Shown: positions 10,461 to 42,871 of the stretch, in pieces
Numbering within the stretch: position 1 is the first letter of the stretch
Layout: each line of letters opens with the position of its first letter
Assembly (NCBI GenBank): GCA_937139485.1
Contig: CAKZQD010000102.1
Location: forward strand, 1 to 42,957
DNA length: 42,957 nucleotides
Direction of reading: 5' to 3'
Source: an uncultured Bacteroidota bacterium
Lineage (GTDB): Bacteria > Bacteroidota > Bacteroidia > Chitinophagales > UBA8649
Program-made: the position numbers and the translations under genes
Notes under the pieces: model-generated
Told to the model about the DNA's origin: nothing
Database searches by the model: none
Seen by the model: the letters and a program-made list of their open reading frames with translations, nothing else

Positions 10461-11414
10461 CTAGTCCTTTACAAACTTACTACTTCCATATTCTTTACCG
10501 TTGATACTTGCTTTTATAAAATAAATACCTTTGGCATAGTCTGAAACATCAAGTTTCAAAACTGACTTAACTTCTGTATTATTTTCTAGAATTTTTTCTC
10601 CTTGATAATTAAACACTTCCAATTTAATGCTATTCAATGAGAATGACTCTACATTTCCAATAGTTATATTTATCAATTCTTTAGCTGGATTAGGAGCAAT
10701 TTCAATGACTCTATTCTCATTTTTCTGATATTCTTTTATGTCTATAATCTCACTTAAATCCATTCGAATACAAACATCATCAACTTGCCAACCTTCATCA
10801 ACACTAGTGCTATCAGAGATAAATGTATATCTAAAAATTGCACTATCAATATCATTTACTGGGTTATTTATTGCTTGTAAGTTAATATCAACAAAAGACT
10901 GAATCCATCCATTTGAATTTTGTGCAATCAGGAGAGAATCATCAACTATATCTCCAGATTCAAAAAAATGACTATTGTTAAAAACATTGTCTATCCCACT
11001 TAAACTTGATCTTGTGAAAACATTATACCACTTTTGTCCATAATCTATAGAAATTTCTAGTTTCCCATAATCGTTTTTTGAGTGTGTCTTAAACCGATGT
11101 CGCATTTCATAATGTATTGGAGGGTATAAATAAAGATAATCAGGTAAATTTTTTACGACTAAATAAAAGATAGAAGTATCATTACTATTATATAAATTAC
11201 CGGTACTTGTCACAATACTATTTTGACTTTGATAAGATGAATCTAAAACCAACTTAGTAGGTTTACCAATTTCCCAGATACTTCCAGAATCAATTTTAAT
11301 GTTTTGGGAAATATCAATACTATCCTCAAAATTAATACAAACATTCAATTCTTGGGCATTTGAATATTGTACCCCAATAAATGTAAACAAGATTAGACTT
11401 AAAATTATTTTCAT
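10461..11414 (-). CDS. Secreted protein with T9SS type A sorting domain
   Basis: Start MKIILSLILFTFIGVQYSNAQ at 11414 (track start 11459 overlaps upstream gene); C-terminal IAPNPAKELINI...GIYFIKASINGKEYGSSKFVKD. Confidence 0.8.
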   Translation of the reverse strand: MKIILSLILFTFIGVQYSNAQELNVCINFEDSIDISQNIKIDSGSIWEIGKPTKLVLDSSYQSQNSIVTSTGNLYNSNDTSIFYLVVKNLPDYLYLYPPIHYEMRHRFKTHSKNDYGKLEISIDYGQKWYNVFTRSSLSGIDNVFNNSHFFESGDIVDDSLLIAQNSNGWIQSFVDINLQAINNPVNDIDSAIFRYTFISDSTSVDEGWQVDDVCIRMDLSEIIDIKEYQKNENRVIEIAPNPAKELINITIGNVESFSLNSIKLEVFNYQGEKILENNTEVKSVLKLDVSDYAKGIYFIKASINGKEYGSSKFVKD

Positions 11415-11418
11415 ACTT

Positions 11419-13005
11419 TTATTCCTTAACAAATTTGGCTCTTCCATATTCTTTTCCATTGATACTAGCTTTTATGTAATAAATATTATTGGTATATTCG
11501 GAAACATCAACTCGAAACACAGGAAACTGACCTTGTAGTTTCTGACTAAACTTACTTGTTTTCTTGCCTAAGTTGTTATAGATAGATATTTCTATTAGTT
11601 CTCCAATATGCGCACCCGAATTACCAATTCCAATATTTATAAAGCTATTTGAAGGGTTTGGATAAGTTTCTATATCAAAAACTTCCCTTGATGGCGAAAT
11701 ATCTATCATTCCCAATGCTAAACCACAGTTTGAAGCACTTAAACAACCATCTGGGTTTAACTTTAACACCCAAACGTCTTGACTAAATGTGTCTATTCCA
11801 GAATGATTAAAACCTGTAAATACCAATTCATTATTATGTAAAGTATCTTCTTGAAAACTATACAACCATGCTACTCCACTATTTGTATTTTTATAGGTTT
11901 TATGCCAGAGTAATTCTTGATTACTATTATACCTTCTTATATCTGCATATTCTCCATTGTAAACCGTATCGTTTTGCCCTATAGAAAGCACTAAAACATC
12001 CCCATTTTGAAGCTCTTGTACTTTTTCTATACTGGCTATATTCATTTCATTATATAAACCAGAAGAAATTGTATCTGAGTATATTACATTGCCATTATTG
12101 ACATCTATTTTACCCCAATATACTTTTTGATAATCTTCAAAAAAACCTACTATTTCACCTTCTACTGTTTGGCTTATATAGCCTTTGTCATAAATTTGTA
12201 TCGGACTATCTCTTCCTGGCGTTTCTATTTTAGTTTCCCAAATAACATTGCCATTTGTATCTATTTTATTGATAAAACCATTTGAGGCTATTGCTGTGGA
12301 GTATTGCCTAACAACAGCACCACTGTCTGTTGAACCAGAAATTAATAATTCATTTTCTGAAATATTAATCATTCTTCCAGATACCTCCCAATTAATCCCT
12401 CCATAAGTTTTTCTAAAGACTTCTTCACCATATTTATTTATCTTAATTAAAAATAAATCATAATTATCCTCAAAATCAGTTGCTGTTTGCCCATACATAT
12501 AATAACTATTGTTTAATTTTAAGGTGCTATTTAAGAATTCAGAAGTATCTGAATTAAAAAATTGAATTTCTTCTAAATTAAAAACACTATCAAACGATAG
12601 TAAAGCTATCCTAAAAAAAGAACCAGTATCTAATAAAGTATCATTAGATAAGAGTCCTATAAAATAACTACCTTGCTCAATTATCATATTTTCTGAATTA
12701 GTATAAATAAGTTTTAAACTATCCACTCTAAAATTTTTATTAAGTATATTATTTCCTTCTAAATCAGTTGTTAGTATAATGATACTTTTATGGTTATTTA
12801 AATAATCTTCCCAATTTAAATTTGAGTTGCCAAAAATGTGGTAAGATGTATCATTAATATATAAATTAACACCAAAATCTGTGCCACCAAAATCATAAAT
12901 TTTACTAAACTGTGCATTAGTTTTTATGCTTAAAAAAATAGAAAATAATATAATAGTAATCTGTTTCACATTTAAAAGATAAGGATTAATTATCTGAAAG
13001 CTCAC
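11419..13005 (-). CDS. Secreted protein with T9SS type A sorting domain
   Basis: Signal peptide ...IILFSIFLSIKTNAQ; repeated DLFLIKINKYGEEVF / VWVLKLNPDG strands; C-terminal TYPNPSNSFINI...KASINGKEYGRAKFVKE. A GTG start at 12969 is also plausible. Confidence 0.8.
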   Translation of the reverse strand: MSFQIINPYLLNVKQITIILFSIFLSIKTNAQFSKIYDFGGTDFGVNLYINDTSYHIFGNSNLNWEDYLNNHKSIIILTTDLEGNNILNKNFRVDSLKLIYTNSENMIIEQGSYFIGLLSNDTLLDTGSFFRIALLSFDSVFNLEEIQFFNSDTSEFLNSTLKLNNSYYMYGQTATDFEDNYDLFLIKINKYGEEVFRKTYGGINWEVSGRMINISENELLISGSTDSGAVVRQYSTAIASNGFINKIDTNGNVIWETKIETPGRDSPIQIYDKGYISQTVEGEIVGFFEDYQKVYWGKIDVNNGNVIYSDTISSGLYNEMNIASIEKVQELQNGDVLVLSIGQNDTVYNGEYADIRRYNSNQELLWHKTYKNTNSGVAWLYSFQEDTLHNNELVFTGFNHSGIDTFSQDVWVLKLNPDGCLSASNCGLALGMIDISPSREVFDIETYPNPSNSFINIGIGNSGAHIGELIEISIYNNLGKKTSKFSQKLQGQFPVFRVDVSEYTNNIYYIKASINGKEYGRAKFVKE

Positions 13006-13009
13006 TATT

Positions 13010-16000
13010 CTAATTTTTAATTTTTGTGCTTGATTTATAAATCAGTTCACCATGTTCGTCTGTAACTACTATAGAATAAAAACCAGAGTTCCAAGAAGAT
13101 ACATCTAAACTAAACAAAGAACTTGTCATGATTCCGGTATGTACATGAGAGTTATTTAACAAATTATAAATTTCTACTTTAAAATTGCCATTTACTGGCA
13201 TATTGTATTCCAAATTTAATATGCCATCTATAGGGTTTGGAAACTGAGTCATTTTAGGCTTTATAGGTGCATTAACAGAAACGCTAGAAGTAATATAATC
13301 AATATCTAATTTATCTTCTTCAAAAAATAAGTCATCAGTAAGCATTAAAATATTTTTTGCTTTTACTGTAGCTGGTTTAAAATCGGGTCTTTTTGCAAAA
13401 GAAGCAACAGTGCTTTTATCTACAGTATTTATTTCAAACCATGTTTTTCCATTTTTATCTAAGTCGTTCTTTATTTTATAAAGATTAGCCAGGTCTTTTA
13501 CATCTTGGTTTGTAGTACTTGTATTTATTAAACTGTTTAGTAAGTTGTTTGCTTGCCCGTGTTTTTGATCTAAGGTATAAAAACTTGCCAACTGTACTTT
13601 ATGCCAATCATCGTTATAGTTGCTTAGTAAAGTTGTTATTTTATCTATCTGTCCTTGTGCTTGGTAATAATGAATTAACTGACCTACTATATTATCTATT
13701 AAAACGACATCGTCTTGATTGTAATAATCTAAGCTATTTAATATGCTATGGTATCCATCTAAATTTATAGTAGATAGCTCCCCCTCTTTACCTACTAATA
13801 CTTCGTCTAAAGGTTTTTCCGGACAAGCACTAGAAGTTATAATTTGTGTTGTTGCAATAACATCAACATATGGAGGAGATCCAAAGTCAGGAACTGTTTT
13901 AGCACCTGTAGGAGGGTTTGAATATCCGTAATAGCTAAAAGCTAAGCCTCCAGATTGCAAATATCCGTCATAAGGGCTATTTGTTGTAAAACTATTTTTA
14001 AAGGTATTGGCACTTGGCTTGGTATAGCTTCCTTGGTCTTGAAGTGTGTTAGTTATTCCTCCAATATAAAAATCAAATGTTTGGTCTTCAAATTTATTAC
14101 AATCTATTTTAAGTTTTAAATTATCTTCTCTACCAGCTAATGCTACTGAAACTCCAATGTTATTATCTTTAATTATTTCATTTTGGTAAACATCTGTATT
14201 TTGATATCCAGAATTCAATAAATAAATACTATGCCCAATGCTGTTAAATTTATTTCTGGTCATTAAATAGCCAGACATTGCCTCTATATATGCACCTTGA
14301 GTGTTAAACACAGTAGCATCTGCAATAAAATCATTTAAGGCTAAAATAGCTTGTTCTGTACCCCTTAGTGAAACACCCCTTGCACAATTTTTAAATTCGT
14401 TATGGTAAATTTGTAAACTTCCAGAAAGTGCTCCAGATGCTGTAGCATGGATTCCTCTTTTTAAATTAATAAATTTATTTGGCACAAGTATTCCCTGGCA
14501 ATCTCCATTATTTACACTACCATTACATATACCTCTAGCAATAAAATTAGCATCTATAGTATAAATACCTGTTGCTTTTCTATCGTCATCTATTGGTATT
14601 GATAATCTTTGATCTTCAAATTTATTACTCAAAAAACGAACCCCATGATTATCCCACATTGTTATATGATATGGAGCATGCTCTTCGAGTCTGTAATCAT
14701 TATCTGTAATAAATTCACAGTTTTCAAATACGCTTGTACTAGCATCAGTGTTGTACGTCATAAACTCTGCTGAGCGTCTATTATTAATAAAGAAACTATT
14801 AGTAGCAAAAACAACACCTCCGTTATGTGTATTCTTTTGAGGCCAATTAGGAAATACTAAGTTATGATGCAGCCTAATAGCTTCTTTTGCATGTTCTAAT
14901 GTAGCATTATTCATATATAGAACACCTTGATTGAATTGGTTATTTGCAATATATTCATCTTCTGTAGGTTGCTGACTATTATTTGAACCTACAACAGTAA
15001 TTCCGTCCCACATTTCACCACATCCATTTGTTATTTTGGCTCCATTTTTTAAAACTAGTTTTGCATTTTTATGAACTATTATACTTCCGTTTTTTGGCAT
15101 ATACAAAGTCATTCCATCAATAATTAATGATTTATTTGAGCCAACAGAAATATTTTGGATCATTGCTTTATCTTCTGTCCAAGTTTCAGAATATCCTTGT
15201 ATACTGTAATAATTAGTAATTTTTCCATTGTCTGGCATTAGGTCTGTTTCGAATAGACCTCTTCCATAAGTTGCTGCTTTTATTTTTCCTGAACATTTAT
15301 TTACTTTTAAACTTACTACACGTATATTTGGTATATCTCCATAACGAACCCAGCTACTATTGTTATCTTTTGTATATACCCCTGCATCTGTTGCTATATA
15401 TAACCTATCATTTGTTCCATCTTGATAAACAATATCATTTACAGGTAGATTAGGTAAACAATTTGTAGGGTCTGTGTCCTGCCAAGTTAATCCAGCATCT
15501 GTTGATGACCATACTTTTATTGTGTCATTGTAACCCGAAAAAGAAATCCAAAGTTTATCTGGATTAGATGTACTTGTAGTAATACCAGACACAACATAAT
15601 GCGGTAAATAACGCCCGTGTATATTATTGAAACTAGACTTTACATTAGTTGTAATATTTTCCCAATTATTGCCATTGTCATTTGTTTTATATAATACATT
15701 ACTCCAATTTGCTAAACTTCCATTAAAATTAGTTCTCCCAGAATTAACCAAATATATTCTAGCCGGGTTAGATTCTGAAATAGAAAACTTATACGCATCA
15801 TTACTATTTGGAATTGAAGATATTATCTGCCACAAATCGCTAGAAGTATCTCCTGCTGCTTTATTTTTCTTTTTCCTTAAGGCTAAACCATCTTTAAATG
15901 CATAAATAAGTTTACTAGATTTTGGATGATTGATAATACTTGCTGAAGCATTTCCAACATGAGTATTTGAACTATTATAGTTTGGGATTAATGAGGTTTC

Positions 16001-17758
16001 ATCTTCTTCAGCATTTGTAATAAGGTTTCTTGCGCTCAAAAACCCATTCCTTCGATATAAAGCAAGAGTAGGTGTTTTATCATCAATTCCTACATTATAT
16101 CCATCTCCTTGTCCAAATTTAATCCAATTGTTACTGTTAAGCTTACTAAAAGTTTGGTTATCTTGAGCTCCAACAATAGTTATTTCATCATTTACTTCAG
16201 AATCGTCCATTGCCCATAACAACATGTTATTTATACCTTGATGTCTAACCTCCCATTCATCTGTTAAAGTTTTATTGGGTTTAAACAAAATTCCTCCGTC
16301 TGACCCTACATAAACACCGCTATTGTCTGGTGCAAAAGAAATAACATGAATATCATCATGTATTAGTGCGTTCTGTTCTGTAAAATTATAGATGTCTGAG
16401 AAAGTATTTGCTACTAAAGCTGTTGATGTACCATAAATTTGCCTATCTCCAAAATACAGTGTATTTGCATCATTTGGTGCTACTGCAATTGGCATTCTGT
16501 TAATACCTCTGTCACAGCAACTAGAAAGAGCCCCTGGTAAGCCCGTATCGAAAGATGGTTTAGTATAAGTTTCAATAAATGTATTACTAGTTTTATCAAA
16601 TACTAATAATTTCCATATACTTGCTTTATTTTCAAACTCAAGATTTCCATCCATATCTAATATATTATTTCCAGCAGCATCCTTTTTAGGAAATCCAATT
16701 TTTACATAGCAAAATACTTTACTTCCATCTGCAGCAGAAGTTGCAATTGTCGATGATAGAATTTTAGAATTTGTTGGTTTAGGATAAGTGTAAACATTTT
16801 TAGTTCCTTGAGAAATATTATATCTAGTTAAATAGTTACTTGATAAATAAATATGGTTACTACTTGAATAATCTCTAACAACATTTCTATAAAAATTAGA
16901 ATTTAATGAATACACTTTAGACCAAATAGGATTTGCAGCAGATATGTTTTCGCATTTCCAAGCTCCTTTACTTGTAGAAACAATCATTCTGTTTTGACTT
17001 GTTGAATACGGATCTATATACATTTGAGTAATGTTACCTCCTTCTTCAAAAGCACTCCAAAAATTATTATCCAAAATTTCTTCCCAATTGTTTCCACCAT
17101 CTATGGACCTAAACAATCCTTGTGTGTAAACTATATTTTGTCCAGCATTTGAAAATGAATAGCCAGGGTCAAAACTATTCATGCCTGTACTAATAAAAAT
17201 TTTATCTTTATTAAGTGGGTGAATTTCTATATCACCGACTCCTGCCATTGGTAGTTTTCTATTCTTAGTTAATAAATTCCAATTTAACCCTCTATCTGTA
17301 CTTTTCCACACTCCGCTATAATAACTACAAGAATACATGGTGTTATCTGTTGCAAAATCTGGGCTATATTCAAAGTTATGTATTTGCCCCCAGCGACTTT
17401 GAGAATTATTTCCAAAAGGACCTAACTCATTCCAATGTTTATATAAATATGTTTCACAACCAGCAGGATCCGTACTCGAATTGTATTTATTTGTTATGCC
17501 AGAAGTATTCAAATTAGAGCTAGTGTAATTTCTTGCATAATTAGTAATAGCTTTATTTGCTTTATTAATATTTCCCCCAACACTAACTAATCTTGGCAAA
17601 AGTATTCTTTCTAAACGCTCATCTTGTTTAGAAACATCGTGAGTAGGATCAGTTCTATATTCTGATACATATTCAAAATAATTAAATGTAGTCGAATCTT
17701 GTGCAATTAGAGTCTGCAAAGTAAAGAAGTAAAGAAGTAAAGAAGTAAATTTTCTCAT
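13010..17758 (-). CDS. Large T9SS surface protein: Asp-box beta-propeller, parallel beta-helix, C-terminal sorting domain
   Basis: Signal peptide MRKFTSLLLYFFTLQTLIAQ; Asp boxes STDRGLNW, SIDGGNNW, TNDNGNNW, STDAGLTW; beta-helix-like NxF/NxI turns (FENCEF, FLSNKF, IYHNEFKNCARGV); C-terminal QFPNPIDGILNLEY. Confidence 0.85.
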   Translation of the reverse strand: MRKFTSLLLYFFTLQTLIAQDSTTFNYFEYVSEYRTDPTHDVSKQDERLERILLPRLVSVGGNINKANKAITNYARNYTSSNLNTSGITNKYNSSTDPAGCETYLYKHWNELGPFGNNSQSRWGQIHNFEYSPDFATDNTMYSCSYYSGVWKSTDRGLNWNLLTKNRKLPMAGVGDIEIHPLNKDKIFISTGMNSFDPGYSFSNAGQNIVYTQGLFRSIDGGNNWEEILDNNFWSAFEEGGNITQMYIDPYSTSQNRMIVSTSKGAWKCENISAANPIWSKVYSLNSNFYRNVVRDYSSSNHIYLSSNYLTRYNISQGTKNVYTYPKPTNSKILSSTIATSAADGSKVFCYVKIGFPKKDAAGNNILDMDGNLEFENKASIWKLLVFDKTSNTFIETYTKPSFDTGLPGALSSCCDRGINRMPIAVAPNDANTLYFGDRQIYGTSTALVANTFSDIYNFTEQNALIHDDIHVISFAPDNSGVYVGSDGGILFKPNKTLTDEWEVRHQGINNMLLWAMDDSEVNDEITIVGAQDNQTFSKLNSNNWIKFGQGDGYNVGIDDKTPTLALYRRNGFLSARNLITNAEEDETSLIPNYNSSNTHVGNASASIINHPKSSKLIYAFKDGLALRKKKNKAAGDTSSDLWQIISSIPNSNDAYKFSISESNPARIYLVNSGRTNFNGSLANWSNVLYKTNDNGNNWENITTNVKSSFNNIHGRYLPHYVVSGITTSTSNPDKLWISFSGYNDTIKVWSSTDAGLTWQDTDPTNCLPNLPVNDIVYQDGTNDRLYIATDAGVYTKDNNSSWVRYGDIPNIRVVSLKVNKCSGKIKAATYGRGLFETDLMPDNGKITNYYSIQGYSETWTEDKAMIQNISVGSNKSLIIDGMTLYMPKNGSIIVHKNAKLVLKNGAKITNGCGEMWDGITVVGSNNSQQPTEDEYIANNQFNQGVLYMNNATLEHAKEAIRLHHNLVFPNWPQKNTHNGGVVFATNSFFINNRRSAEFMTYNTDASTSVFENCEFITDNDYRLEEHAPYHITMWDNHGVRFLSNKFEDQRLSIPIDDDRKATGIYTIDANFIARGICNGSVNNGDCQGILVPNKFINLKRGIHATASGALSGSLQIYHNEFKNCARGVSLRGTEQAILALNDFIADATVFNTQGAYIEAMSGYLMTRNKFNSIGHSIYLLNSGYQNTDVYQNEIIKDNNIGVSVALAGREDNLKLKIDCNKFEDQTFDFYIGGITNTLQDQGSYTKPSANTFKNSFTTNSPYDGYLQSGGLAFSYYGYSNPPTGAKTVPDFGSPPYVDVIATTQIITSSACPEKPLDEVLVGKEGELSTINLDGYHSILNSLDYYNQDDVVLIDNIVGQLIHYYQAQGQIDKITTLLSNYNDDWHKVQLASFYTLDQKHGQANNLLNSLINTSTTNQDVKDLANLYKIKNDLDKNGKTWFEINTVDKSTVASFAKRPDFKPATVKAKNILMLTDDLFFEEDKLDIDYITSSVSVNAPIKPKMTQFPNPIDGILNLEYNMPVNGNFKVEIYNLLNNSHVHTGIMTSSLFSLDVSSWNSGFYSIVVTDEHGELIYKSSTKIKN
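17719..17750. repeat. 8-bp tandem repeat AAGTAAAG x4 (last copy 7/8) inside signal-peptide codons
   Basis: aagtaaag aagtaaag aagtaaag aagtaaat read directly. Confidence 0.95.
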
Positions 17759-40835: not shown

Positions 40836-42056
40836 TTAATACGAATACCGCAACCTCAAATTCACAGAATTACCCAAATTTTTATACACTCGTTGTTGGG
40901 CAAAGAAAGTCTGAACCGTCATATCTATATCCCAATTTTCTTTGATGGAATAACTAACTGTTGGTATTATCATCCATAAATGAACACCTGTACCATAAAC
41001 AGAAACCAAACTCACATTCCAAGCTGGTCCAAAGGCTTTGGAAACTTGACCCATAAAAGTATATTTGGTTGGCATTAAGTTTTTGGCAGAAATTTCTTGA
41101 CCAAACAAATTTAATAATGAAAAGCCACTAATATATTTTGAAACACCTTCGCTATTGTACAAAAAACCAACATTGGCATAGTAACCGTCTTTAAAAGAAT
41201 AATCTAAACCAAGTGTTCCTGTAAATACACCTCTAGATTTTGAAAAACGTCTTCTATTGTGAAAATAAGTTGCTTCTCCTTTAAAACCTGCATCTTTTAT
41301 ATTTCCAGCCCAACCCAAACCTAATGCTAAATCTGTGTTGTAGTTTCCACCTAATATTTGAAAATCATAATTCCACTTGTTGAATTTATACATTAAAGCT
41401 ATAATAGATTCGTCAAGCGTTTTTTCTGGTTGGTAAGCAAATTCTATGCTTGAAGAAAAGTTTGGAAAGTAACTAATTCTTACGGCATCGGTTCCTGGTC
41501 TTTCTTCATAGTCGAAGTCTAAAAAGTTGTAGGCGTTAAACAAATCGTTAGGGTTCCAAAGGTTTGAAATTCCCCAATTGATTCTTTGTCGTCCTAATTT
41601 TACATCAAATTTCCCTTTATAGAAATTTACAAATAATCTATCTATTGTAGTATTTAAAATAAAAGCTTTTTGGTTTACAATATTCCAAGACATATCTATA
41701 ATTCCATTGTCTTTGTCTATTTGTTGAGCATACAATGGGTTCAGCTTCATTGTTTCGCCATAAAAAGCACGGTTTCTAATTCCTGCTTGTATTTCGAAGT
41801 GATTTCCTAAATATGCTTTTAAGTTTATTCTATTGTGCAATAAATTATCGTTCAATAAATCGTCTGCATTGGTAAATGAAGAGGTATTCAAATACTTTAC
41901 ATAACCAGAAACGTCTATAATATCTTTAAACTTCTTTTTTGTTTTAGCTTTTTCTTTTTGGCTATACAAACTCATTGGTAAAGCAAAAAGTAATATAAAA
42001 ATAAATGTTTTTTGTTGCGTGAAGACACGAAACAAGGTGTTTTTACTTCTTTTCAT
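40836..42056 (-). CDS. Outer-membrane beta-barrel (porin-like) protein
   Basis: Signal peptide MKRSKNTLF...LFALPMSLYSQ; DVKLGRQRINWGISNLWNPNDLFNAYNF; terminal LRLRYSY. Overlaps the ABC gene end slightly. Confidence 0.8.
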   Translation of the reverse strand: MKRSKNTLFRVFTQQKTFIFILLFALPMSLYSQKEKAKTKKKFKDIIDVSGYVKYLNTSSFTNADDLLNDNLLHNRINLKAYLGNHFEIQAGIRNRAFYGETMKLNPLYAQQIDKDNGIIDMSWNIVNQKAFILNTTIDRLFVNFYKGKFDVKLGRQRINWGISNLWNPNDLFNAYNFLDFDYEERPGTDAVRISYFPNFSSSIEFAYQPEKTLDESIIALMYKFNKWNYDFQILGGNYNTDLALGLGWAGNIKDAGFKGEATYFHNRRRFSKSRGVFTGTLGLDYSFKDGYYANVGFLYNSEGVSKYISGFSLLNLFGQEISAKNLMPTKYTFMGQVSKAFGPAWNVSLVSVYGTGVHLWMIIPTVSYSIKENWDIDMTVQTFFAQQRVYKNLGNSVNLRLRYSY

Positions 42057-42723
42057 CAGAAACAACTTTTCCATCTACTAAAGTTATAACTCTTGTTGCT
42101 CTATCTATAACTCGCTGATCGTGAGTAGAAAATATAAAGGTAATACCTTCTTCTTCGTTTAGTTTTTTCATTAAATCTAAAAGATTTTCTGCTGTTTTAG
42201 AGTCTAAGTTTGCTGTTGGTTCGTCTGCTAAAATAAATTTAGGCTTTGAAGCTAAAGCTCTTGCTACAGCTACACGTTGCTGCTGCCCTCCACTTAATTG
42301 TGCTGGTCTTTTATGTTCTTGACCTTCCAAACCTACTTCTGCCAAAAGATCTTTTACTCTTTGATTTCGTTCTGCTTCTGGTTTGTTTTGAAGCAACATG
42401 ATAAACTCTGTATTTTCTTGAGCAGATAGTACTGGTATTAGATTATAACTTTGGAATACAAAACCGATATTCTTTAGTCTAAAATCTATCATTTCATTGT
42501 CTGATAAGTTTTTTAAAGTTGTTCCGCCAACAGAAATTTCTCCAGATGTTGGTCTGTCTAAGCCACCAACCATATTTAAAAAAGTTGTTTTTCCAGAACC
42601 TGAAGGGCCGACAACGGCTGTAAACTCATTGTCTTCAAAATCTATGCTTACATCATTTACTGCTTTTACAGGAACTACGCCTTCATATACTTTTGTTAAA
42701 TTTTTTGCTTCTATTACTTTCAT
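42043..42723 (-). CDS. ABC transporter ATP-binding protein, LolD/MacB type
   Basis: Walker A GPSGSGKT, signature LSGGQQQR, Walker B FILADEP. Confidence 0.95.
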   Translation of the reverse strand: MKVIEAKNLTKVYEGVVPVKAVNDVSIDFEDNEFTAVVGPSGSGKTTFLNMVGGLDRPTSGEISVGGTTLKNLSDNEMIDFRLKNIGFVFQSYNLIPVLSAQENTEFIMLLQNKPEAERNQRVKDLLAEVGLEGQEHKRPAQLSGGQQQRVAVARALASKPKFILADEPTANLDSKTAENLLDLMKKLNEEEGITFIFSTHDQRVIDRATRVITLVDGKVVSDEKK

Positions 42724-42725
42724 GT

Positions 42726-42789
42726 TTTAATGCTTTAATGCTTCAATGCTTCAATGACTCAATGATTCAAGGAGAGAATGAGAGAATGG
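42726..42789. repeat. 8-bp degenerate tandem repeat (8 units) directly upstream of ABC gene
   Basis: TTTAATGC TTTAATGC TTCAATGC TTCAATGA CTCAATGA TTCAAGGA GAGAATGA GAGAATGG. Confidence 0.85.
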
Positions 42790-42871
42790 ATCACTTCTGC
42801 AATTTTATAATTATTTTATAACCATTTAAGGCTTGTTAGTTTGTTTTTTTGTTTAATGCCTGTCGGGAAGT

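Follow-up and report, generated by a model that had tools for sequence, protein, structure and literature searches.

Does a short tandem repeat in the signal peptide of a large secreted protein serve as a translational ON/OFF switch, or is it a repeat that the gene tolerates? We addressed this question for a gene in a 42,957-nt stretch of DNA from an uncultured Bacteroidota bacterium (the window). The features that bear on the question are listed below.

13010–17758, minus strand: 1582-aa secreted protein (signal peptide, domain matches, sorting domain)
17699–17758, minus strand: signal peptide MRKFTSLLLYFFTLQTLIAQ, with a hydrophobic core encoded by the array (sequence reading)
17719–17749, minus strand: perfect octamer tandem array of 31 bp, 3.9 copies (TRF, codon reading)
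13040–13243, minus strand: T9SS type A C-terminal sorting domain (Por_Secre_tail), residues 1506–1573 (profile matches)
11419–13005, minus strand: second T9SS cargo gene, a 528-aa ORF with a likely GTG start at 12969 (sorting-domain match)
10461–11459, minus strand: third T9SS cargo gene, a 332-aa ORF with a likely ATG start at 11414 (sorting-domain match)

The 1582-aa protein is predicted to be a T9SS type A cargo, given an N-terminal Sec signal peptide and a sorting domain that scored above the cut-offs of two profiles (PF18962, 30.8 bits with a cut-off of 27; TIGR04183, 25.8 bits with a cut-off of 23). Many other ORFs of the genome have similar signal peptides that end in ...AQ. The sorting domain was the sole Pfam match above cut-off, and no homology to the neisserial Opa barrel was found. 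The N-terminal half is Asp-box/β-propeller-like, with weak BNR/Asp-box matches and part of a glycosylhydrolase-family model; residues ∼870–1200, which may adopt a β-helix-like fold, are common to other secreted proteins. Solved structures gave no match by sequence to the protein. The initial annotation had described the gene as the first of three closely spaced T9SS genes, and their adjacency and shared orientation were confirmed; with the probable starts at 12969 and 11414, the intergenic gaps are about 40 and 4 nt.

TRF analysis of positions 17719–17749 gave a period of 8, 3.9 copies and a 100% match; every other tandem array of the window scored lower. The unit is AAGTAAAG on the plus strand, in the ACTTCTTT phase on the coding (minus) strand, and the plus strand of the array reads (AAGTAAAG)x3 followed by AAGTAAA. 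On the minus strand the gene starts with ATG AGA AAA TTT ACT TCT TTA CTT CTT TAC TTC TTT ACT TTG CAG. The 8-bp repeat that the initial annotation had noticed in the early codons is perfect by TRF. It begins with codon 4 and ends at the first base of codon 14, where codons 3–13 had been given, and it has three full copies plus seven bases rather than four copies. Position 17758, given as its end, is that of the ATG; the array stops at 17749.

The array is real and goes beyond chance. Shuffles of the window produced no 24-bp (three-unit) match, even when up to 3 mismatches were allowed. The array has 23 consecutive lag matches, compared with a maximum of 9 in the other 139 of the 140 ...AQ-ended signal-peptide ORFs in the sampled 1.39 Mb of the genome, and the probability of a perfect period of 8 over 31 nt, given the peptide FTSLLLYFFTL and the codon usage of the genome, is about 1e-5. 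A chance origin was ruled out by these three results, and the last two point to an array born by slippage. As the encoded peptide has no 8-nt logic, selection at the protein level cannot account for the periodicity of the DNA, which must stem from slippage or duplication.

Because 8 is not a multiple of three, slippage by one or two units would shift the reading frame. Recomputed peptide lengths were 11 aa for the loss of two units, 22 aa for the loss of one, 19 aa for the gain of one and 30 aa for the gain of two. The hand translations made earlier (MRKFTSLLLYFADSNCTRFDYI for the loss and MRKFTSLLLYFFTSLLCRL for the gain of one unit, each followed by a stop) were exact, as was the placing of both stops within about 25 codons. 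The accompanying claim that the frame is kept only by the present count or by changes of three units stood for the gain of three, which preserves everything in a protein of 1590 residues. The loss of three units also keeps the frame (1574 residues) and removes most of the signal peptide; the 12 residues left, MRKFTLQTLIAQ, have a maximum hydropathy of 1.47 versus 2.35 for the present form and are probably too short for export, so that in effect only n = 4, 7, 10... units would be ON. An in-frame stop lies 15 nt 5′ of the ATG. The mechanics first described were thus right: a T9SS cargo whose signal peptide contains a non-triplet SSR, with early stops in both other frames.

The array was then set against other repeats in the genome; genome-wide statements cover 1.39 of 3.0 Mb, five contigs that read as N having been left out. 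Poly-G/C tracts of 9 or more and other strong coding SSRs were both absent from the sampled 1.39 Mb, long SSRs of any kind were hardly present, and the array is not visibly part of a phasome there. We counted the arrays that break the frame and have 10 or more lag matches, and took the expected numbers from codon shuffles. Gene bodies contained 15 such arrays versus ∼61 expected, other 5′ ends none versus 4.25, and signal peptides 2 versus 1.75, both in T9SS cargo genes. The depletion in gene bodies and 5′ ends indicates that selection purges such arrays from coding sequence, and not detectably from signal peptides. Two arrays versus 1.75 is no enrichment in number; the octamer array is exceptional only in its length. 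The second of the two signal-peptide arrays is the following, in which changes of one or two units in either direction truncate the product to 14–29 aa.

L153, 15853–18255, plus strand: T9SS cargo of 800 aa that carries TTTG ×4 in its signal peptide (array census)

A degenerate octamer family, (AATGANNN)n, with NNN mostly TTT, TAG, TTC or GAG and about 4–12 units, was also seen at no fewer than eight places in the genome, apparently mostly intergenic. These include window positions 42727–42790, just upstream of a minus-strand ORF at 42043–42723, as well as L160 5810–5937, L051 9876–9965, L101 ∼11748, L114 ∼11134, L125 ∼9847, L129 ∼3969 and L181 ∼14632. In the same draft, the neighbouring contigs L162 and L163 (G000:C103, C104) are exactly 7004 bases each, a possible duplicated contig.

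We scanned GTDB 220, one genome per species, for three units of the octamer and obtained 32 stretches, the majority of them intergenic or in doubtful ORFs (Treponema, Shewanella, Prevotella and others). Long arrays outside clear genes were observed with 12 copies in Treponema and 15 copies in Tindallia (L188, L209). Only two stretches, L195 and L192, fell in genes of good length; both are from Bacteroidota and, in the sense orientation, make up the core of a signal peptide. Recurrence of the same octamer is itself an effect of the search, which used that octamer only. That the coding cases are all in signal peptides is informative, at three cases including the window.

One of the two is a secreted protein of Lewinellaceae bacterium SD302 (L195 = G340:C61) with 4.0 copies, MKYFTSLLLYFFTLSAMVGQ; in a sample of 398 genomes from the same order, the array occurs here and in the genome under study and nowhere else. 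The SD302 protein has the octamer in the same place and frame as the window protein and shares with it a ∼330-aa region at 23% identity, but differs around the array and in the rest of the protein. No sorting domain was found in the part of the protein covered. A change of one unit in either direction leads to early stops, and in congeners of SD302 no ortholog of the array protein exceeded 28% identity. The other is a component of the export machinery.

L192, 1217–3229: PorZ of Prevotella sp. AGR2160, with 3.6 octamer copies in the signal peptide, MRHGCFQGIAFLLLYFFTSLPLYASG (Pfam PF21544)

Here too the octamer occupies the signal peptide of a T9SS-related protein, although PorZ belongs to the machinery and the window protein is a cargo. 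A change of one unit would truncate PorZ to 54 or 110 aa. In a sister genome (L236) the PorZ, 93% identical, has no such array, and its signal peptide differs from that of AGR2160 and includes a palindromic insertion. It follows that arrays of this kind are gained and lost. In Prevotella AGR2160, five of the six octamer places lie between genes or at gene ends. A search for orthologs of the window gene with other repeat lengths yielded none: among 100 relatives there was no ortholog spanning the signal peptide, partial matches at ∼23–45% identity being devoid of the N-terminus, and a GTDB scan with the 1582-aa protein found no ortholog. Viral contigs, searched by a pattern with a flexible gap, gave no match.

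Three other accounts of the array have to be weighed. An assembly or sequencing artefact, by which the true array would differ in length or be absent, might be suspected in a draft genome as fragmented as this one (242 contigs, 92% complete, 3% contamination, probably metagenome-assembled). We regard it as very improbable: the reading frame runs uninterrupted through 1582 codons, the genome contains one copy of the locus, and an array of 31 bp, being shorter than ordinary short reads, assembles without difficulty. Still less probable is that translation begins 3′ of the array, which would make it a leader or untranslated element that switches nothing, an objection that the initial annotation had itself named. 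TTG at codons 14 and 54 or ATG at codon 141 could in principle be used, but T9SS cargo proteins depend on a Sec signal peptide, the start at 17758 is the sole one to supply it, and the peptide read from there matches the type found on many ORFs of the genome. A downstream start was rejected on the ground that none in the gene keeps a signal peptide.

The serious competitor is a neutral, tolerated repeat that expanded by chance slippage, in which frame-shifted lengths are purged, an acceptable signal-peptide core survives, and rare slippage amounts to loss of function and not to a switch in use. The octamer can be tolerated as a core because its 24-nt cycle encodes TSLLLYFF, which is uncharged, hydrophobic and stop-free, as would be the products of 313 of 8160 octamer cycles. 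Neutrality is also favoured by the mostly intergenic occurrence of the octamer in other bacteria (the Prevotella AGR2160 places included), by the tolerance of signal peptides to change that the PorZ sister illustrates, by a number of signal-peptide arrays no higher than codon shuffles predict, and by the lack of a phasome in the sampled genome. It fits less well with a length of 31 bp, far outside what is expected of signal peptides, and growth from one to four units would have needed either an out-of-frame passage and return, itself OFF/ON switching, or one three-unit step.

In the switch that we propose, a slippage-born octamer microsatellite would have come to encode the hydrophobic signal-peptide core of a surface protein exported by T9SS. 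Slippage of one or two units during replication would then cause a frameshift and a stop within 11–30 codons (OFF), and slippage back would restore the frame (ON). The assembled state of 4 units would be ON, as would 7 units, and switching would probably proceed at a low rate because there are only about 4 copies. It is plausible that the OFF state also reduces the two downstream T9SS genes by polarity. In its mechanics the array amounts to an Opa-like ON/OFF site, and it is a good candidate for a contingency locus of a known kind. Overall, the interpretation in the initial annotation is partly supported. In favour of the switch we counted the perfect array and its improbability, the immediate stops, the single usable start, the T9SS domain, the sparing of signal peptides from array depletion, the same array in two further Bacteroidota, a copy number above the Neisseria cut-off and the Opa precedent; against it, the low copy number, below the Campylobacter cut-off, the missing phasome, the commonness of the octamer between genes and the PorZ sister without an array. 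We put the probability that the array acts as an Opa-type translational contingency switch, with slippage, reversibility, benefit and polarity as its presumed elements, at about 45%, and give a low-rate switch and a tolerated neutral repeat roughly equal odds.

Known phase variation in Bacteroidota proceeds mostly by DNA inversion. In a literature search of incomplete coverage, we found nothing direct on SSR phase variation in Bacteroidota and no paper in which a T9SS cargo is switched by a microsatellite. If the switch is true, repeat length would become a simple marker of surface-protein heterogeneity in uncultured bacteria. A wider reading, in our view unlikely, is that signal peptides of Bacteroidota repeatedly acquire octamer microsatellites, by which exported proteins, and in one case the T9SS component PorZ itself, become frame-switchable; this would be an Opa-like translational contingency mechanism for T9SS, in addition to the DNA inversions known from the phylum. 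PorZ with the same repeat would be the more striking case, since without PorZ all T9SS export should be affected, and the further carriers SD302 and Prevotella AGR2160 would make the switch question testable.

Among known systems, the array can be placed by copy number and by mechanism. With 3.9 copies, it is above the cut-off of at least 3 copies that a Neisseria phasome study applied to 6–9-nt units (PMC5953494) and below the at least 5 copies required of longer units in Campylobacter (PMC6321876). The leader peptide of neisserial Opa contains CTCTT repeats that alter the reading frame (PMC3960869, PMC3899988). The present array differs from Opa in being an octamer of about 4 copies rather than the pentamer CTCTT, in its host protein, a T9SS cargo of Bacteroidota and not a neisserial outer-membrane barrel, which confines the analogy to mechanism, and in being a single locus, known from sequence alone, where Opa is a multigene family. 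Common to the array and Opa (P.II) is a pyrimidine-rich, non-triplet SSR that encodes the leader or signal peptide of a surface protein, in which changes of unit number shift the frame and stop translation, as predicted here from the DNA. The period of 8 lies within the 5′ coding region and is not divisible by 3, changes of −2, −1, +1 and +2 units all truncate the protein, and the product, with its signal peptide and T9SS sorting domain, is secreted and presumably located at the surface. If real, the locus would represent a case parallel to Opa, and independent of it, in a different phylum.
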